A stretch of 29,700 bases of DNA, from contig JABURN010000036.1 of the NCBI GenBank assembly GCA_014762585.1, positions 1-29,700 of the forward strand, written 5' to 3'. The notes under the pieces were generated by a model. It ran no database searches, was not told the DNA's origin, and saw only the letters and a program-made list of their open reading frames with translations. Within the stretch, counting starts at the first letter, position 1, and every line of letters starts with the position of its first letter. A program made the position numbers and the translations under genes. The stretch comes from Methylophaga sp. Lineage in GTDB: Bacteria; Pseudomonadota; Gammaproteobacteria; Nitrosococcales; Methylophagaceae. Below are positions 13,990 through 28,901 of the stretch, in pieces.

Positions 13990-16026
13990 ATGTTTAAAAG
14001 ACGCAATATGTCATTGATGGTGGCCCTTGCTCTGGGCACTGGTGCCCAGGCTGTGGTGGCTGAAGACAATCTGGCGCTGGATGAACTGGTCGTCACCGGT
14101 ACCCGTTCTGAAACGCCGCTATTGGAACAGGCCGGTAATACCGGCAAGATTTCTGAAGAGGAAATCGATCTGGTGCGCCCGGACCACATTACCGAGATTG
14201 CCAACCGGGTCAGTGGCGTTAATATTCAGCACGGTAATGGTCAGGAGCATCTGACTTCGATTCGTTCCCCGGTCCTGACCGGCGGCGCCGGCGCCGGTTC
14301 ATTCCTGTTCCTGGAAGATGGTATTCCGCTTCGTGCAGCCGGTTTTGCCAATGTAAATGGCCTGTTTGAAGTCAACTATGAGCAGGCAGGTGGCATTGAA
14401 ATCGTTCGTGGCCCCGGCAGTGCCTTCTACGGCTCCAACGCCGTACATGGTCTGGTTAATGTGTTGTCGCGGGCACCTTCACTGGAACTGGAGCGCGAAA
14501 TTGATTTGTCGATTGGACCGCATGATCTTTACACCGCCAAAGCCACTGTGAGTGATACTGTCGGCAATCATGGTTATCGCGTCAATGTGCTGGGTACATC
14601 GGATGGCGGTTATGTCAGCGAGTCCGGTTATGACCAGCAGAAAGTGACTTTGCGCCATGACTACTTCGGCGATGTCGACAGTTTCAAGACCTTATTCAGC
14701 TATACCAACTTGAATCAGGAGACGGCCGGTTACATTGTAGGCTTCAAGGCTTATGAAGATGAGAGCCTGTCGCGCACCAACCCCAACCCAGAAGCCTATC
14801 GTGATGCCAAATCCTATCGCCTGTCGACAGAGTGGATTCACGAGCTGAGTGACACTTCTCGTTTTACCCTGACTCCATACATGCGTCATACCGAAATGGA
14901 GTTCCTGATGCATTTCCTGCCGGGCCAGCCGGTAGAGAAAAACAAGCACAGCAGCGTCGGTCTGCTGTCGTCTTACACGAAGGAGCTGGATGGCGGTCAT
15001 AAAGTGATCGTGGGTACCGATTTTGAATACACCGAAGGTGAGCTGTCCGAGGTACAGTTCAATCCCGATACTTTCGGTCGTTTCCTTCAAGGCGTGCATT
15101 ATGATTATGAAGTCGATGCGACAGTGATTGCACCCTACATACATAGTGAGTGGCAAGTACTTGAAAAAACCCGTGTGACAGCGGGTCTGAGATACGAGTA
15201 CACCCGCTATGATTACACCAATAACACTGACTCACTCACTTTCGGTCCACGTTATCTGCGACCTGATAGTGACGTTGATACCTTCAGTAATTTCAGTCCC
15301 AAGCTGGGGCTGGTACAAGAGCTGACCGACGACACTGCAGCTTTTGTGAATTACTCGCGAGGGAACCGGGCTCCACAAACTACCGATTTGTATCGTGCTC
15401 AGGTGGTACCGTCACAAACCGGTACTGCGGATTCGGAAACCATCGACAGTATCGAAGTCGGTCTGCGTAAAGTCGGCGAAGGGCTGCAGTATGAGATTGC
15501 CGCCTATCACATGAAAAAGCGGGATTATTTCTTCACCGACAGCAGTGATCAGAATGTACCTGACGGTAAAACCGAGCATACTGGTCTTGAGATCGGGGTG
15601 TTCTACCCATTCAACGCCAAATTCGATATTGCGGCGAATGTCGCTTTTGCCAAGCATGAGTATGATTTCGACAAACCCAATGCCAATATCGAAAAAGGCG
15701 ACTACCTGGTTACGGCACCGCGCCGGATTGGCAATATACGCCTGGGCTGGAATGTGACACCACAAACCCGCACAGAACTGGAGTGGGTGCATATCAGCGA
15801 TTACTACCTGAATGACGCCAATACCTTCAAATACGAAGGGCATGACGTCTTTAACCTGCGTGCCTCACATGATGTGACTGCAAACTTCACGGTGTATGGC
15901 CGCATCAAAAACCTGTTCAACACAGAGTATGCCGAGCGGGCTGATTACAACGCTAATATCCCTGACTACCGTTACTTCGTCGGTGAAAAGCGTTACCTGC
16001 ATGTAGGTGCAAGTTACCGTTTCTAA
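13990..16026 (+). CDS. TonB-dependent outer-membrane receptor, substrate unknown
   Basis: 678 residues with a signal peptide ending near VVAE (about residue 24) and a clear TonB box DELVVTGTR at about 31-39. The plug (about 40-165) contains FLFLEDGIPLRAAG and IEIVRGPGSAFYGSNAVHG. The barrel runs to a terminal YRF, the usual C-terminal phenylalanine. It is of the BtuB/CirA-like shape rather than the siderophore type of the other two receptors, and I see no Fur-like box upstream. The substrate may be a vitamin, metal complex, peptide or carbohydrate. The gene is monocistronic, with a terminator 10 bases after its stop. The convergent neighbour on the other strand is the ATP-grasp gene, which may be chance. 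Confidence 0.88.
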   Translation: MFKRRNMSLMVALALGTGAQAVVAEDNLALDELVVTGTRSETPLLEQAGNTGKISEEEIDLVRPDHITEIANRVSGVNIQHGNGQEHLTSIRSPVLTGGAGAGSFLFLEDGIPLRAAGFANVNGLFEVNYEQAGGIEIVRGPGSAFYGSNAVHGLVNVLSRAPSLELEREIDLSIGPHDLYTAKATVSDTVGNHGYRVNVLGTSDGGYVSESGYDQQKVTLRHDYFGDVDSFKTLFSYTNLNQETAGYIVGFKAYEDESLSRTNPNPEAYRDAKSYRLSTEWIHELSDTSRFTLTPYMRHTEMEFLMHFLPGQPVEKNKHSSVGLLSSYTKELDGGHKVIVGTDFEYTEGELSEVQFNPDTFGRFLQGVHYDYEVDATVIAPYIHSEWQVLEKTRVTAGLRYEYTRYDYTNNTDSLTFGPRYLRPDSDVDTFSNFSPKLGLVQELTDDTAAFVNYSRGNRAPQTTDLYRAQVVPSQTGTADSETIDSIEVGLRKVGEGLQYEIAAYHMKKRDYFFTDSSDQNVPDGKTEHTGLEIGVFYPFNAKFDIAANVAFAKHEYDFDKPNANIEKGDYLVTAPRRIGNIRLGWNVTPQTRTELEWVHISDYYLNDANTFKYEGHDVFNLRASHDVTANFTVYGRIKNLFNTEYAERADYNANIPDYRYFVGEKRYLHVGASYRF

Positions 16027-16036
16027 ATAAAATGAT

Positions 16037-16063
16037 AAAAAAGGGGCCCTCGGCCCCTTTTTT
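16037..16063. terminator. Bidirectional Rho-independent terminator
   Basis: AAAAAAGGGGCC (16037-16048) and GGCCCCTTTTTT (16052-16063) with loop CTC. The A-run and T-run make it effective for both converging genes, the TonB receptor (+) and the ATP-grasp ligase (-). Confidence 0.92.
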
Positions 16064-16080
16064 ATTAGAGATAAACTCCC

Positions 16081-17559
16081 TCAGCGACTGGCTGACTTTC
16101 TCTCTTCCAGCCGTCGCAAAAACTCACGCATGATATCGTCATACAGCGCCATACCCAGGTATTCATCTTCGACACCGCTGTCGATGCTGGGGTTGTCATT
16201 GATTTCGATCACCACAATGCGGTTGCCACTCTGCTTAATATCAATGCCATAGAGCCCATTGCCAATCAGCTTGGCAGCCTTGGTGGCGATGCGAATCACT
16301 TTTTCCGGTACTTCACTGACCGGTATCGCCGCAGACTTACCGCTGTCAGTGCCTTTTTTGGTGTTGTGGTTGTAGATCTGCCAGTGGCCTTTACTCATAA
16401 AATACTGGCAGGCATAAATCGGTTTGTTGTTGAAGACACCAATCCGCCAGTCATAATCGGTGTACATATATTCCTGCAGCAGAATAATCGCTGACTGCTG
16501 GAAGAAGGCCGGGGCTTCACGGCGCAGATCGTCGGCATTGTTGACCTTAATCACACCGCGGGAAAAGGCCCCGTCTGGGATTTTCATCACCAGCGGGAAG
16601 GTGGCGGTTTCACACAATGCATCCAGACCCGCATGATCATTGCGATACAAAAGGTGCGATTCCGGCATCGGCAGATCATTCGCGGCCAGCAGTTCCTTCA
16701 AATAGATCTTGTTGGTGCAACGGATGATTGAGGTGGGGTCATCAATAACGACCAGACCTTCACTCTCAGCGCGGCGGGCAAACTTGTAGGTGTGGTTATG
16801 CGTCGCCGTGGTTTCACGGATAAACAGAGCGTCATATTCAGCCAGGCGAATGTATTCGCGCGGCGTAATCAGCTCGACATCAATGCCGATGCGTCGACCA
16901 CTGCTGATGAACTTCTTCAGCGCCGCCATATTGCTGGGCGGCATTTCTTCCTTGGGATTATGCAAAATCGCCATATCGTATCGGTACTGGCGACGTTTGG
17001 ATGGCTTGCGCCACAGGCGATGACTGAAGTTATCCAGCGCTTCGGCAAAGAAATCCTGTTCCTGCTCGCTCAGTTTGTTGATGGCACTGGCCTTGATGCG
17101 GGTAATGGTCCAGTGGCCGTTAAAGCTGAACTCAACATCCAGAATCGGGCAGGGGAATTGTTCGAAAATCTGCCGCGCCAGTTTCTGCAGTGAAGTCACC
17201 GGCGTCTGGCCGAAGTAAATTTTCAGGACAAAGCGTTCAGTCTGGTCAGTGGTGGCCAGTTGTTTGTCCAGTTGTGCCGACAGATCGGACAGGTCATAAG
17301 CGTAAAGACTTTTGCGCGATAAATCGTTGATGGTGCGCAGTCCGGGCAGGACCCGATGGCCGCGGGCTTCGGCCACCATAGAGCAATAATAGCCGCGACT
17401 CAGGTAGTCGAGGCTGCGGCAAAGGTTGAGAATCTGCGCACGACTGTCGCTGCGCGGCGGGGGAGATTGCAGGTAATCATCGACCGCAATGACCTGCTCA
17501 CTGGGGAAATAGGGACTCCAGTCATCAATATTTTCGACTATTATCAGATGCTTAGTCAT
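16081..17559 (-). CDS. RimK-like ATP-grasp ligase with N-terminal RLAN domain
   Basis: 492 residues. About 1-160 resembles the RLAN domain that precedes a subset of RimK-like ATP-grasp proteins; a linker leads to the ATP-grasp core at about 280-485. Visible core marks are VMKIPDGAFSRG (325-334, nucleotide-binding lysine K326), LLQEYMYTDYDWRIGVF (360-376) and YGIDI (D440) with IEINDNPSID (451-460), the acidic/Asn Mg-ATP ligands. ATP-grasp enzymes of this group join a carboxylate to an amine via an acyl phosphate, as RimK does when adding glutamates to ribosomal protein S6. True RimK is shorter (about 300 residues) and lacks RLAN, so the target here is probably different. It is divergent from the DUF2817 and GNAT-C39 genes, a neighbourhood I recall as recurrent for this family. 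Confidence 0.9.
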   Translation of the reverse strand: MTKHLIIVENIDDWSPYFPSEQVIAVDDYLQSPPPRSDSRAQILNLCRSLDYLSRGYYCSMVAEARGHRVLPGLRTINDLSRKSLYAYDLSDLSAQLDKQLATTDQTERFVLKIYFGQTPVTSLQKLARQIFEQFPCPILDVEFSFNGHWTITRIKASAINKLSEQEQDFFAEALDNFSHRLWRKPSKRRQYRYDMAILHNPKEEMPPSNMAALKKFISSGRRIGIDVELITPREYIRLAEYDALFIRETTATHNHTYKFARRAESEGLVVIDDPTSIIRCTNKIYLKELLAANDLPMPESHLLYRNDHAGLDALCETATFPLVMKIPDGAFSRGVIKVNNADDLRREAPAFFQQSAIILLQEYMYTDYDWRIGVFNNKPIYACQYFMSKGHWQIYNHNTKKGTDSGKSAAIPVSEVPEKVIRIATKAAKLIGNGLYGIDIKQSGNRIVVIEINDNPSIDSGVEDEYLGMALYDDIMREFLRRLEERKSASR

Positions 17560-17635
17560 AGTGTGCTGTTGCTTCCTCCTGCGCCAGCGTGGTGTTTAAA
17601 AACGAATGATAAAGTCAATTTAATCTGCATGTGTT

Positions 17636-17709
17636 AAAAATTTTTGCGAAGGATTTTATTTGCTGGTCAAAATGAGCAAACTCACATATTCTTCGCGAAA
17701 AATTTTTGC
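17636..17709. repeat. Repeated A5T5 element with flanking inverted repeat in a divergent promoter region
   Basis: AAAAATTTTTGC occurs at 17636-17647 and again at 17698-17709, 62 bases start to start. The first copy is followed by GCGAAG and the second is preceded by CTTCGCG, so TTTTTGCGAAG and CTTCGCGAAAAA also form an imperfect inverted repeat. Inside lies a six-base hairpin TTTGCT/AGCAAA (17659-17664, 17675-17680). The element lies entirely between the ATP-grasp and DUF2817 genes and ends three bases before the AGGAGG RBS. Confidence 0.65.
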
Positions 17710-17726
17710 ACAGGAGGCCCGTTGCC

Positions 17727-18803
17727 ATGTATGCAGATGCCGTTTTGAGTGTTTTTTCCCAACGTTACGCGGGGGCTCGCGACAAGTTTATCAGCCATGT
17801 CGAAACCAGTTCGATCGTGGAAAAGCTGACCAATCTGCCGCACCCGCTGAAGGGGCCCAAAAACGAAAAACTGTTCTGTGACATCGCCTGGGCCGGGAAT
17901 CTCAAAGCCGACAAAGTCCTGGTGCTGGTATCAGGCATCCACGGTGTTGAGGGTGGCGTGGGCTCGGCGATTCAGTCCGACTTCGTGTCCCGTCACCGTC
18001 GTCTGCCTTCCGATGTCTGTGTGGTGCTGGTGCATGCGCTGAATCCCTGGGGATTTGCCTGGGCGAGTCGAAATGACGAGCAGGGCATTGATGTCAATCG
18101 CAACTTTGTTGACTTCAATAGTAAGCTGCCAGTTTCCAAAGCCACCGAAATCTGGGCTGAATTACAGCAGGGCAAAACTGACATAGCGACGATTGCGCAA
18201 AACCGCCAGCAATTCGACTTGCTGTCAGAGGGGCAGTACGAAAAACCGGACATGCCCTATTACGGCGGAAAAGAGCCCAGTTGGTCACGTCAGGTTGTGG
18301 AGCAGCTGGTAGCGCAAATCAAGCCGGCTAACCGTAAACAAGTCATGGTGATTGATATTCACAGTGGCCTCGGTCCCTATGGTTACGGTGAGCTGATTTG
18401 TGATCATCCAGTGGACAGCAAAGCCCATGATTATGCTGTGGAACTGTTCGGTGCCACGGTCACGGAGCCGTCGCTGGGCAACTCCAGTTCCGGTACCAAG
18501 CTGGGGCTGCATGACTATTTCTGGCACAGTCAGGGTGAACATGTCTGCTATCTGACACTGGAATTCGGTAGTTTCGGCAATCAGCAGATGCTCAAGGTCC
18601 TGTCCGACGATCAGAAGCTGCAGCAGTCCGGCAAAATGGACTGGTCGGATGACAAAACTCTGGATGTTAAACATGCGATGCAGGACTTTTTCTGCCCGGA
18701 TGAAGCACAATGGCAGGAACTGGTGCTGTTCCGTGGCCGTCAGGTGATAGAGATGGCACTGGACGGATTAACTGAGAATGCAAACCACAACAACGGACGC
18801 TGA
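17727..18803 (+). CDS. DUF2817 M14-like zinc carboxypeptidase/deacylase
   Basis: 358 residues. The frame can be extended to a TTG at 17706, but that would place the perfect AGGAGG (17712-17717) inside the gene, so ATG 17727 with a 9-base spacer is the start. Zinc-peptidase residues are visible: HGVE (H72, E75), the M14-type NRNF (124-127), a third ligand H212 in DIHSGLG, and the probable catalytic glutamate E279 in TLEFG. No signal peptide is seen, so it is cytosolic. The family is related to carboxypeptidase A and succinylglutamate desuccinylase/aspartoacylase-like enzymes and would cleave an amide or peptide bond. The last 26 bases overlap the next gene, indicating translational coupling with it. 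Confidence 0.87.
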   Translation: MYADAVLSVFSQRYAGARDKFISHVETSSIVEKLTNLPHPLKGPKNEKLFCDIAWAGNLKADKVLVLVSGIHGVEGGVGSAIQSDFVSRHRRLPSDVCVVLVHALNPWGFAWASRNDEQGIDVNRNFVDFNSKLPVSKATEIWAELQQGKTDIATIAQNRQQFDLLSEGQYEKPDMPYYGGKEPSWSRQVVEQLVAQIKPANRKQVMVIDIHSGLGPYGYGELICDHPVDSKAHDYAVELFGATVTEPSLGNSSSGTKLGLHDYFWHSQGEHVCYLTLEFGSFGNQQMLKVLSDDQKLQQSGKMDWSDDKTLDVKHAMQDFFCPDEAQWQELVLFRGRQVIEMALDGLTENANHNNGR

Positions 18804-19908
18804 GATCGATATTCGCGAAGCGACACTGGATGATGTCGATGCGCTGAATAAGCTGGAAAATGCCTGTTTCGACACAGACAGGATTTCCCGCCGCAGCTTT
18901 CGCTGGATGATCGAAAAAGGCCACAGTCTGTTGCTGGTGGCGCTTGTTGACCAGCAACTGGTCGGCTATGTATTGCTGCTTTATTCAAAGGGCACCTCCC
19001 TGGGCCGGGTCTATTCGCTGGCGGTGGATGCCCGTTATCGCAAGGCCGGTATCGCCGCCAGGCTGATGCAGGAAGCCGAAACCCAGGCACTGGATGATGG
19101 CCGTAGCTTCCTGAGGCTGGAAGTCCGTCCTGACAACCATGGCGCTATCCGTCTCTATGAAAAGCTGGATTATCAGCCTTTCGATATCGTCACCGATTTC
19201 TATGAGGATCATGCTGACGCCCTCAGAATGATGAAGGTGCTGCACCACCAGCCTGAAATTACCCACCCTGAGGTCGCGCATTACTCCCAGACCACCGACT
19301 TCACCTGTGGTCCGGCCTGCCTGATGATGGCGATGAAAACCTATGATGCGCCTCTTGTACTGGACCGGCGTCTGGAATTCCAGCTCTGGCGAGAAGCCAC
19401 CACCATCTTTATGACTTCCGGTCATGGTGGCTGCAGTCCGCAGGGCCTGGCGTTAGCCGCCTACCGTCGCGGGCTCAATACCACCCTGGTCACGAATTCT
19501 GACTTGATTCCCTTTGTGGGTGGCGTGCGAAGTGAAGACAAAAAGGCGGTGATTGAATGCGTGCATCAGGACTTCATCGAGCAAATCAGCAGTTCTGAAA
19601 TCCAGCAGCAACAAAGTACCGTCGATACTGCACTGCTCAAACATTATCTGGATCAGGGTGCCCTGGCGCTGGTTTTGATCAGCTCCTACCGGCTTAACGA
19701 GAGTAAATCCCCGCATTGGGTGCTGGTGGTGTCGGTATCAGATACTTTTGTTTATTTTCACGACCCGGATGTAGATTTGGACGATAACAAAAGCCTCACT
19801 GACAGCGGCTATATCCCGGTTACACATAAGGAATTCAACCGCATGCTGGGCTACGGTAAACCGCGCTATCAGGCGGCCGTTATTGTGTCAGACGCAGGCA
19901 TGAATTGA
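18778..19908 (+). CDS. GNAT acetyltransferase fused to a C39-like cysteine peptidase
   Basis: 376 residues. The N-terminal half (about 10-155) is a GNAT domain; RYRKAGIAARLM at 87-98 is the acetyl-CoA pyrophosphate loop, and AIRLYEKLDY at 123-132 is the usual late GNAT segment. The C-terminal half (about 165-375) is a papain-fold, C39-like domain with C177 in FTCGPA, H313 in SPHWVLV and D329 in FHDPD as the likely triad. C39 domains normally cut leader peptides at double-Gly sites in ABC exporters, but here there is no transporter, so a cytosolic peptide or isopeptide is more likely. Start ATG 18778 lies inside the DUF2817 gene. This fusion commonly sits next to RLAN ATP-grasp genes, to my recollection. 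Confidence 0.88.
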   Translation: MQTTTTDAEIDIREATLDDVDALNKLENACFDTDRISRRSFRWMIEKGHSLLLVALVDQQLVGYVLLLYSKGTSLGRVYSLAVDARYRKAGIAARLMQEAETQALDDGRSFLRLEVRPDNHGAIRLYEKLDYQPFDIVTDFYEDHADALRMMKVLHHQPEITHPEVAHYSQTTDFTCGPACLMMAMKTYDAPLVLDRRLEFQLWREATTIFMTSGHGGCSPQGLALAAYRRGLNTTLVTNSDLIPFVGGVRSEDKKAVIECVHQDFIEQISSSEIQQQQSTVDTALLKHYLDQGALALVLISSYRLNESKSPHWVLVVSVSDTFVYFHDPDVDLDDNKSLTDSGYIPVTHKEFNRMLGYGKPRYQAAVIVSDAGMN

Positions 19909-20000: not shown

Positions 20001-22154
20001 ATGTCTTTCACTAAAACAGTTATTGCCACCTCTCTAGGGCTTTTCTCCCTTCAGCCCGCGCTGGCTGACACTGCAACACCAGAAGAAACCAAAGCAGCAG
20101 TATCTCTCCCCAAAATCGGCGTTTCCGGAGAGTGGTATGGAGCCTCAGAGCACACTGGGGAATATCGGGTAAACCAGATGAAAACGGCAACACGTTTAGG
20201 CTTGTCGGCAAGAGAAACGCCACAGTCGGTGTCGGTGATTACCCGGCAGATCATCGACGACTTTGAGCTGGAAACGATTACCGATGTGGTGAAACTCGCG
20301 CCGGGGATTACAGCCAAGGAAAATGACAGTTCCCGTTTTAACTACTCTGCCCGGGGCTTCGATATTAACAATTTACAGATTGATGGTGTGCCGACTACCT
20401 GGGAAAGTGGTTATTCTGCGGGCGAAACCATGACCGATACAGTCCTGTATGACCGCGTTGAAATCGTGCGCGGCGCTACCGGGCTGATTACAGGGGCAGG
20501 CGATCCTTCCGCTGCTATTAACCTGGTCAGAAAGCGTGCAGACAGCCATGAGTTTGTTGGACATGCAACAGTATCGGCTGGATCGTGGGATGCCTATCAG
20601 GGCACCGTGGATGTTTCCACCCCATTAAATGACGCTGGCACCGTTCGTGGCAGATTAGTTGGCAGCTACCGCGAAGCAGATTCCTATGTGGACTTGCTGG
20701 GTGATGAGCGTCGTGTTTTTCTTGGCACACTGGCAGCGGATCTAACTGACCGCACCCTGTTGAATGTAGGGGTTAGTCATCAGGATCATAACCCGACATC
20801 ATCTACCTGGGGCGGCTTGCCGGCCTGGTTCAGCGATGGCTCAAGAACCGACTGGAACCGTTCCAAAACCACAGCAGCCGATTGGACCCGATGGGGCTCT
20901 GAAGTGACCAATTACTATGCCAATATTGAGCATCAATTTGATTCCGGTGCGATGATTTATGCGGCTTACAGTAAGAGCGTCAATGAGGGTGATTTACGCC
21001 TGCTTTATCTCAGTGGCTCACCTGATCCGAATACCGGGTTGGGAATGAATTCAAGCCCGTCCTGGTATGACAATGAGCGGGAACAGGACAACATCGATAT
21101 TTACGGTAATATCCCGTTCTCGCTATTCGGCCAACAGCATGAAGTCACACTGGGGCTGATGCACAGCGAGCAGGATTTTATTGCTAAACGTCGCGATGCA
21201 TTGAATAACGCTGCGGTAGGCAATTTTTTTGAATGGGATGGCAGCTATCCTGAGCCAAACTGGGGACCAAAACGTACCTACGTGACCCGTGATACCAAGC
21301 AGACAGGTCTCTATGCCGTCACACGCTTGACGCTCGCCGAACCGCTCAAATTGATTCTGGGCAGTCGCGTGACAGACTGGGAGGTTGAAGGCATGAACTG
21401 GGATGGCAGTCTGTATAAGTTTGAACATGACGACGAAGTCACGCCCTATGCCGGTCTGATATACGACTTGAACGATACCTACTCTGCCTATGCGAGTTAT
21501 ACCGAGATATTCCAACCCCAGAATCTGCAGGATAAGAATGGTGATTTTCTGGAGCCGATTGATGGAAAAAATTACGAAACAGGGATCAAAGCGGCTTATC
21601 TGGATGGTCGTCTGAACACCAGCTTGTCGGTATTTCGCATCGAGCAGGATAATCTCGGACAAGTAGATCCAAACAACCTGGTACCCGGTTCAACTAACCA
21701 GGCCTACGAGCCTGCTGAAGGGGCGACGAGTAAAGGTTTTGAATTTGAAGTTAACGGGGCGCTGACGGATAACTGGAATGTGCTGTTAGGATGGTCTCAG
21801 TTCCGGGCTGAAGATGCCAATGGCGAGGCTGTAAATACTGAGCATCCTCGTCGTACAGCCACGCTTTATACTACTTACCGCATGGATGATTTGACCTTGG
21901 GGGGCGGCCTGAACTGGGAAAGCAGCAACTATACGATTGCCAATAATCCCCAGGGCAATCCTGAAAAGCTGAAACAGGACAGTTTTGCCATAGTGAACCT
22001 GATGGCCAGATACCGGCTTTCTTCTGAACTACAGGCCCAGCTCAATATCAATAATGTCTTTGATGAGGAATATTACAGTCAGATTGGTTTCTACAGCCAG
22101 CTGGCCTATGGTGCACCGCGTAATGTGACTGCCAGCCTGCGTTACGACTTCTGA
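20001..22154 (+). CDS. TonB-dependent siderophore receptor, FhuE/FpvA-like
   Basis: 717 residues. A signal peptide ends near ALA (residue 22). The mature start lacks the extra domain for FecR-type signalling seen in FpvA, so it is like FhuE, the coprogen/hydroxamate receptor. The plug includes ETPQSVSVITRQ (about 72-83), ARGFDINNLQIDGVPT (about 115-130) and VEIVRGATGLITGAGDPSAAINLVRK. The barrel ends SLRYDF, preceded by FYSQLAYGAPRNVTA, which is typical of FhuE/FpvA relatives. The substrate is probably a ferric hydroxamate or mixed-type siderophore, but its identity is not shown. The Fur-like site at 19924 fits iron repression. It starts 92 bases after the GNAT-C39 gene on the same strand, but with its own promoter. 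Confidence 0.9.
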   Translation: MSFTKTVIATSLGLFSLQPALADTATPEETKAAVSLPKIGVSGEWYGASEHTGEYRVNQMKTATRLGLSARETPQSVSVITRQIIDDFELETITDVVKLAPGITAKENDSSRFNYSARGFDINNLQIDGVPTTWESGYSAGETMTDTVLYDRVEIVRGATGLITGAGDPSAAINLVRKRADSHEFVGHATVSAGSWDAYQGTVDVSTPLNDAGTVRGRLVGSYREADSYVDLLGDERRVFLGTLAADLTDRTLLNVGVSHQDHNPTSSTWGGLPAWFSDGSRTDWNRSKTTAADWTRWGSEVTNYYANIEHQFDSGAMIYAAYSKSVNEGDLRLLYLSGSPDPNTGLGMNSSPSWYDNEREQDNIDIYGNIPFSLFGQQHEVTLGLMHSEQDFIAKRRDALNNAAVGNFFEWDGSYPEPNWGPKRTYVTRDTKQTGLYAVTRLTLAEPLKLILGSRVTDWEVEGMNWDGSLYKFEHDDEVTPYAGLIYDLNDTYSAYASYTEIFQPQNLQDKNGDFLEPIDGKNYETGIKAAYLDGRLNTSLSVFRIEQDNLGQVDPNNLVPGSTNQAYEPAEGATSKGFEFEVNGALTDNWNVLLGWSQFRAEDANGEAVNTEHPRRTATLYTTYRMDDLTLGGGLNWESSNYTIANNPQGNPEKLKQDSFAIVNLMARYRLSSELQAQLNINNVFDEEYYSQIGFYSQLAYGAPRNVTASLRYDF

Positions 22155-27515: not shown

Positions 27516-28901
27516 TTAAGACCGGCTGGAGCGGGCTCTTTTTATTGCCGCCCGAACCTGTGCTGGTGCGGTACCACCCAGATGATTGCGGGCTGCCACC
27601 GAACCTTCCAGAGTCAGCACATCAAACACATCGGCTTCAATGCGGTCGGAGAACTGCTGTAATTCTTCCAGGCTCATCGCCGACAAATCTTTTTTATGCT
27701 TGAGGCCATAAGCCACTGACAGACCTACCACTTCATGAGCATCACGGAACGGGGTGCCCTTGCGTACCAGGTAGTCGGCGAGATCGGTGGCGGTGGCATA
27801 ACCACGCAGAGCAGATTCACGCATATTGTCAGCCTTGACGCTGATCGCTCCCATCATATCGGCATAGACCCGCAACGAGCCCAGCAGTGTATCGATGGTA
27901 TCGAACAGCGGCTCCTTGTCTTCCTGATTATCCTTGTTATAGGCCAGTGGCTGGTTTTTCATCAGGGTCAGCAGATTGAACATATTGCCGTAAACACGGC
28001 TGGTCTTACCGCGAATCAGTTCAGGCACATCCGGGTTCTTCTTCTGCGGCATAATAGAGGAACCGGTACAGAAAGCATCGCCCAGATCAACATAATCAAA
28101 CTGGGCCGATGACCAGATAATCAGCTCTTCCGAGAAACGTGACAGGTGCATCATCAGAATCGAGGCAAAGCTGTTGAATTCGATGGCAAAGTCCCTGTCG
28201 CTGACCGCATCCAGCGAATTCTGGCAGATACGGTCAAAACCCAGCAGGCTGGCGGTCATCTCACGATCAATCGGGAAAGTGGTACCGGCCAGCGCCGCTG
28301 CACCCAGTGGCATGCTGTTGACGCGTTTTTCGCAGTCATCCAGACGCTCGGCGTCACGCACCAGCATTTCATACCAGGCCAGCATATGGTGGCCGAAAGT
28401 CACGGGCTGTGCGGTCTGCAGATGGGTAAAGCCGGGCATGATGGTTTCGGCCTCACGCTCGGCAACATCCAGCAAGGCTTCCTGCAGACGGTTGAGCTCA
28501 CTGCGAATCGGTTCAATCATATCGCGCAGATAGAGGCGAACATCGGTGGCGACCTGATCATTGCGTGAACGGCCGGTATGCAGTTTCTTGCCGACTTCGC
28601 CAATCAGGGCAATCAGGCGCGCTTCGATGTTCATGTGCACGTCTTCCTGCGCGATCGACCATTCGAACTTGCCGTCTTCGATTTCCTGTTCAATCTGCTG
28701 CAGGCCATCAATAATCTGATCCCGTTCTTCTGCGGTCAGCACGCCTACTTCAGTGAGCATGGTGGCATGAGCGATGGAGCCACGGATGTCCTGACGGAAC
28801 ATGCGCTGGTCAAAACTGACCGAGGCAGTGAATTCCTCGACAAATTTGTCGGTAGGCTGGGTCAGTCGTGCAGAGGAAAGTTTCTTGTTGGCTGTGCTCA
28901 T
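27516..28901 (-). CDS. argH: Argininosuccinate lyase
   Basis: 461 residues, the usual length. Fumarase/aspartase superfamily marks are the [13 protein letters not shown] region (108-120), [10 protein letters not shown] (157-166, catalytic His160) and the signature [12 protein letters not shown] (280-291), whose flexible loop carries the catalytic serine. The enzyme splits argininosuccinate into arginine and fumarate, the last step of arginine synthesis. The start at 28901 has a weak RBS (CAAGAT). A TATAAT -10 sequence lies 36 bases upstream. It is divergent from hemC; argH and hemC are neighbours in many gammaproteobacteria, in pseudomonads with algZ-algR between them, which are absent here. 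Confidence 0.98.

Follow-up and report, generated by a model that had tools for sequence, protein, structure and literature searches.

Three neighbouring genes of Methylophaga sp. (GenBank assembly GCA_014762585.1) belong to a common set of enzymes that, judged from sequence comparison, probably synthesises and caps a small compound of amino-acid or peptide type and degrades it at a later stage. They lie in a stretch of 29,700 nucleotides, here called the window, which is the whole of contig JABURN010000036.1 (C163 of 260 in the assembly). All three genes are intact: an RLAN-RimK ATP-grasp ligase on the reverse strand and, divergent from it on the forward strand, a DUF2817 gene followed by a fusion of a GNAT domain with the C39-like domain DUF3335. 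This proposal draws on the domains and their intact active sites, the linkage of the genes across genomes, a GNAT-RLAN fusion in one lineage and a single clade of DUF2817 proteins tied to the unit. The nearest relatives of the ligase, at 78-98% identity, are all from Methylophaga, and the next is from a gammaproteobacterial metagenome-assembled genome (MAG) at 74%.

Partners of the ligase across genomes

The association of the RLAN ligase with DUF3335 is real. Among 398 Pseudomonadota genomes, RLAN was found in 72, DUF3335 in 58 and full-length DUF2817 in 51. RLAN was common to 57 of the 58 DUF3335 genomes (Fisher 1e-53) and, more weakly, to 26 of the 51 DUF2817 genomes (Fisher 6e-9), where both tests treat genomes as independent though they are related. 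The co-occurrence that the earlier note on this DNA had proposed to tabulate is thus present for both families, to different degrees. In the same sample, 55 of 61 DUF3335 places were located within 5 kb of RLAN, as were 15 of 63 DUF2817 places. Since 13 of these 15 fall in one family code (f194), the genome counts overstate independence. In 185 gammaproteobacterial genomes, counted from match tables with weak partial matches omitted, RLAN was found in 44, full-length DUF3335 in 29 and full-length DUF2817 in eight. Here, RLAN was present in 28 of the 29 DUF3335 genomes and was a neighbour in 27 of them, across 26 family codes. It occurred in four of the eight DUF2817 genomes, always as a neighbour, and the other four were without it; conversely, DUF2817 was found in 4 of the 44 RLAN genomes.

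The surroundings of the ligase were compared in 104 loci, namely the window, 21 loci obtained by ligase similarity, 41 of the 43 other RLAN genomes of the gammaproteobacterial sample, one plasmid record and 40 places from the phylum sample, which were taken for diversity and not randomly from 75 RLAN places. Loci L082 (contig end), L096 (ligase in pieces) and L148 (a repeat of L133) were dropped; the L096 ligase (L096:5626-6765) is split over several frames and looks degenerate. Partner genes were tallied within 3.5 kb of the ligase, and the clustering of neighbours was restricted to open reading frames (ORFs) of at least 70 amino acids (aa). The survey of residues and that of arginine genes left out L053 (n=103).

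The GNAT domain is the most constant partner, being near RLAN in 86 of the 104 loci. A C39-like domain was found in 79 (69 of the DUF3335 type and 10 short C39), one or both of these partners in 97, the window having both, and DUF2817, an accessory, in 22. Loci with GNAT and C39 either had no extra hydrolase (35) or additionally carried DUF2817 (21), an ArgE protein of the M20 type (9) or an M14 peptidase (3). The remaining types were GNAT alone (18), short C39 with GCS2 and FGase (9), short C39 alone (1), C39 with DUF2817 at a contig end (1) and neither partner (7). The hydrolase partners therefore vary between lineages. Pfam searches on representatives identified Peptidase_C39_2, GCS2, FGase, M14, M20 and one pyruvoyl arginine decarboxylase. 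The short partner of 240 aa in the GCS2/FGase type is a C39-like protein alone and not a GNAT, according to its sequence and Pfam.

In a tree of 97 ligases, the GCS2/FGase type including L088 forms a single clade with a support of 100. By a quick method, at least eight changes are needed to explain the GNAT-only loci and at least five for the DUF2817-linked loci. The clade is represented by L070:7880-12031 and eight similar loci, in which the partners of the ligase are a stand-alone C39-like protein, a member of the GCS2 family and a protein resembling N-formylglutamate amidohydrolase, with GNAT not nearby.

Several genes of arginine metabolism were also observed near the ligase. With a profile built from ArgE proteins of 380-430 aa, argE was found within 2 kb in 9 of 103 loci (L054, L060, L062, L064, L071, L080, L081, L086 and L103), three of which also have argA within 3.4 kb. 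The argH gene is at most 3 kb away in L033 and L042, and its distance is 7-10 kb in L032, L041 and the window (27516-28901). In a Neomarinimicrobiota MAG (L048:9522-12357), the ligase comes after a lone GNAT and before a pyruvoyl-dependent arginine decarboxylase. The plasmid record, NZ_CP133752.1 from Pseudomonas aeruginosa, carries its RLAN ligase (L102:8911-10500) near glutamate/aspartate transporter, ggt and asparaginase genes, with neither GNAT nor C39 adjoining.

Active sites and comparison with known ligases

The catalytic residues that had been read as intact from the window alone proved to be conserved in the relatives of all three proteins. In the ligase, Pfam identified RLAN (PF14401; 2.8e-54, 183.3 bits, cut-off 25) followed by RimK (PF08443; 7.3e-11, 42.5 bits, cut-off 21), and the Mg-ATP residues K326, D440, E452 and N454 are invariant in all 103 aligned loci. 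The second protein matches the DUF2817 profile (PF10994) over its full length (2.9e-75, 254.3 bits). Its putative zinc-peptidase residues H72, E75, H212 and E279 are invariant in 20 of 20 RLAN-linked proteins, and E279 is retained in 20 of 21 proteins of an earlier mixed set. Matches to M14 and AstE-AspA enzymes are weak, with 19.7 bits for AstE_AspA_cat (under the cut-off of 25), an E-value of 0.0047 for MpaA in a profile comparison and one of 0.0011 for Rep34.

The fusion protein combines Acetyltransf_1 (9.2e-18) with DUF3335 (PF11814; 8.1e-83, 277.4 bits). The papain-fold triad proposed for it, C177, H313 and D329, is supported by C177 and H313 being invariant in 68 of 68 domains, while position 329 is Asp in 61 and Glu in 7. 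In comparisons with PDB structures, the GNAT domain is closest to the N-terminal acetyltransferases Ard1 and RimI, although it stays below the RimI family cut-off (TIGR01575, 76.2 vs 86.4 bits). Among 86 GNAT domains, E115, which we take to be the counterpart of the catalytic Glu of RimI, is invariant, N120 has one exception, and position 88 of the coenzyme A (CoA) loop is Arg or Gln in 80. The match lists of the ligase in the fold comparison were filled by its ATP-grasp part, and that of the fusion protein was not informative on the C39 half.

In one locus, the two most constant components are joined. L112:6556-8556 on the reverse strand is a single open frame of 667 codons that encodes a GNAT domain (13-178) and an RLAN ligase (186-667), as confirmed by Pfam, and a separate GNAT-C39 gene lies beside it. 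This order of GNAT and ATP-grasp is also that of Ngg, the N-acetylglutaminylglutamine synthetase. According to an excerpt of PMC8070244, Ngg carries out two reactions, acetylating one glutamine and bonding it to a second, and the ngg operon includes an aminopeptidase gene. A metallopeptidase-type gene is likewise close by in the unit of the window. On the NCBIfam NAGGN synthetase model (TIGR03103), the window GNAT aligns at 154-217 and the RimK-type proteins of its own genome at 284-528; this genome contains no match above the cut-off of the model (best 35.6 vs 569 bits). The unit differs from Ngg in the extra RLAN domain of its ligase and in that an AsnO-like amidotransferase was not found among the 19 window proteins scanned. 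In comparison with the LysX/ArgX amino-group carrier ligases, the window ligase reaches 80.4 bits with LysX_arch, under the cut-off of 275.6.

The DUF2817 clade and the layout of the window

In a tree of 44 DUF2817 proteins, the 20 linked to RLAN form one clade (96/82; 96% of bootstrap trees) as opposed to the 24 unlinked ones. The near copies L035, L038 and L053 were excluded from this tree, as was L164 (232.5 bits, below the 250-bit line), and it carries a long-branch warning for L098, L101, L167 and L168. In gammaproteobacterial loci, DUF2817 is divergent from the ligase and overlaps or abuts GNAT-C39, whereas in other loci it follows the ligase in convergent orientation or lies downstream in the same direction. 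In L143, it adjoins GNAT-C39 without a ligase. As one DUF2817 lineage accompanies the unit through these several arrangements, its distribution argues for a real role. The closest unlinked proteins (L160, L166 and L168), weakly joined to the clade (96/50), come from genomes with RLAN elsewhere. Some unlinked DUF2817 proteins placed elsewhere in the tree (L155, L156 and L159) also come from genomes with RLAN, and therefore the presence of RLAN in a genome alone is no marker of the clade. One unlinked DUF2817 gene (L099:9564-10697) has an in-frame TAG and was used only as an open piece.

A DUF155 (RMND1/Sif2) protein was also observed in L143, where GNAT-C39, DUF2817 and DUF155 follow in series (L143:6508-9809), away from the ligase of that genome. 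DUF155-like matches are also close to the ligase in L077, L106, L118 and L136.

The features of the unit in the window are listed in Table 1. The 26-base overlap of the two forward genes described in the earlier note (18778-18803) was confirmed. The likely start of DUF2817 is the ATG listed, which is preceded by AGGAGG in the window and retained in 10 of 10 aligned loci (the window and nine relatives). The TTG at 17706, given as the start in the ORF list, lies seven codons upstream; the DUF2817 residue numbers of the earlier note, kept here, are counted from the ATG. Between the divergent genes, positions 17660-17720 are well conserved across the ten loci and contain CTGGTCAAAATG, then AAACTCACATAT and CTTCGCG in most rows, with weaker conservation in L039, L041 and L042. 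This stretch may be the promoter or operator of the DUF2817 and GNAT-C39 pair.

Table 1. Features of the three-gene unit in the window
Feature	Position	Strand	Evidence and details
Terminator-like hairpin directly 3' of the ligase gene	16035-16065	-	predicted hairpin
RLAN-RimK ATP-grasp amide ligase, 492 aa	16081-17559	-	RLAN residues 27-174, ATP-grasp about 194-486
Divergent intergenic region, ligase / DUF2817	17560-17726	.	alignment; regulatory role inferred
DUF2817 M14/AstE-like zinc amidohydrolase (predicted), 358 aa from ATG	17727-18803	+	Pfam, ribosome-binding site, start conservation, residues
GNAT-DUF3335 (C39-like) fusion gene	18778-19908	+	ORF and Pfam
GNAT domain of the fusion, residues about 1-166	18778-19275	+	Pfam; PDB comparison; E115
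DUF3335 C39-like cysteine hydrolase domain of the fusion (C177, H313, D329)	19276-19908	+	Pfam (match 19276-19887); residues

No structured RNA above the Rfam gathering score was found in the window. Readings of the unit as a defence system or as phage cargo were set aside, as the three proteins had no PADLOC match and gave generic PHROG matches only.

Proposed pathway and alternatives

The reading preferred here, although held at somewhat less than even confidence, is that the unit works in the manner of Ngg and produces an N-acetylated amide conjugate, which the hydrolases trim or recycle. In this pathway, the GNAT domain would acetylate an amino acid or short peptide at its alpha-amine. The ligase would then convert the carboxylate of the capped compound to an acyl phosphate and couple this to an amine, either that of a second amino acid or another one. 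The acetyl cap would block self-polymerisation, of which poly-glutamate is the product in the case of RimK according to an excerpted source; acyl blocking of a competing amine ahead of ligation has been proposed for other peptide systems (excerpt of PMC2922099). Finally, the two hydrolases, the C39-like cysteine enzyme and the zinc enzyme DUF2817, could cut the amide or remove the cap. Beyond the enzymes being intact and travelling together, we infer the order of these steps, the acetyl donor in vivo, the substrates, a small cytosolic product and the targets of the hydrolases. The earlier interpretation, that the unit makes, trims and perhaps caps a conjugate, is partly supported: it fits overall, but its weighting has to be shifted, as the capping GNAT is the most constant partner, C39 can be absent and DUF2817 is optional.

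Several observations weigh against the preferred reading. TIGR03103 was not among the NCBIfam matches to the RLAN protein at an E-value of 0.001, which means that this ligase and that of Ngg are not closely related. The fusion was directly seen in L112 only, with ligase frames of similar length in two more genomes of the same genus code. In the window itself, ligase and GNAT are divergent and thus share no transcript. Ten loci, the nine with GCS2 and FGase and L088, have C39 without a GNAT nearby, and seven have neither partner, although the contig of L043 spans 3 kb and DUF3335 is present on another contig in the genomes of L094 and L129. Within the GNAT domain, Y127 is kept in 74 of 86 (Phe in 11, Ile in 1) and G91 of the CoA loop in just 73. 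Furthermore, no neighbouring gene fixes the substrate.

A less probable explanation is protein tagging, in which the ligase would extend a protein C-terminus like RimK, the GNAT would acetylate an N-terminus like RimI and the hydrolases would remove the tag like RimB. The unit resembles the RimK-RimB/RimI system in its RimK-like ligase fold, its RimI/Ard1-like GNAT and the peptidases nearby. However, the ligase is below the cut-off of the RimK family (TIGR00768, 92 vs 143.4 bits) and has the additional RLAN domain, the peptidases come from other families, and the genome has a separate RimK and RimI above the cut-offs (RimI on C68). Somewhat more doubtful still is a make-and-break set on the plan of glutathionylspermidine synthetase/amidase, where the ligase would form and the papain-like domain hydrolyse the same amide, thereby setting the level of the conjugate. 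The pairing of ATP-grasp with a C39-like hydrolase in 79 of the 104 loci and the conserved Cys and His of C39 agree with this, as does the clade in which GCS2 and FGase join ligase and C39, a combination that would suit glutamyl amides. Yet the 18 GNAT-only loci lack C39 and are scattered on the ligase tree, as their minimum number of changes indicates, and C39 is therefore not obligatory.

ATP-grasp enzymes, C39-like peptidases and GNAT domains are each found in clusters for ribosomally synthesised and post-translationally modified peptides (RiPPs). Maturation of a graspetide-like or other ribosomal peptide is nevertheless very unlikely, since the ORFs in the two gaps are all short or overlap named genes, their conservation not having been tested, and the scan of 19 window proteins gave no match to an exporter family. 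The 70-aa minimum in the clustering could hide a RiPP precursor. Hardly any weight is given to a siderophore- or metallophore-linked unit, which the two flanking TonB-dependent receptors at 13990-16026 and 20001-22154 would suggest (FauA 754.6 bits, cut-off 900; FhuE 663 bits, cut-off 666). Relatives of these receptors occur no farther than 6 kb from the ligase in 12 of the 104 loci, all from Methylophaga or the genus code of the window. In the Methylophaga loci these are relatives of the first receptor; the second is present only in the window itself, in L053 and, at a greater distance, in L039. As the receptors are genus-bound among the 104 loci checked for relatives of these two, the siderophore link was set aside.

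The core link between RLAN and GNAT-papain is not new. Iyer et al. reportedly predicted in 2009 (Mol Biosyst 5:1636) that RLAN-RimK ligases lie beside GNAT-papain fusions and that GCS2 and M20-type peptidases accompany some of them, and the Pfam entry of RLAN (PF14401) is reported to list the same neighbourhood. The 2009 work reportedly included neither the tied DUF2817 clade nor the GNAT-RLAN fusion nor the GNAT-only class. Relative to this, the weighting towards ligase and GNAT, the fusion and the DUF2817 clade would be additions. Among the papers listed by searches of one open-licence library for these families, no experimental study was recognised. DUF3335 members are described in an excerpt of PMC10318531 as often fused to GNAT domains, which might serve as peptide ligases or in acetylation.

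RLAN is widespread in both genome samples. It is conceivable, if on balance rather unlikely, that about a fifth of the sampled Pseudomonadota make an unrecognised N-acetylated amide metabolite, such as a compatible solute, a storage compound or a regulated conjugate, by means of an RLAN ligase-GNAT synthetase, and that unrelated hydrolases (C39, DUF2817 and possibly M14, M20/ArgE and FGase) were recruited to dismantle it. With the core of ligase and GNAT, the fusion on the plan of Ngg and the DUF2817 clade tied to the unit, what was a vague guess at peptide modification becomes an ordered hypothesis that can be assayed.

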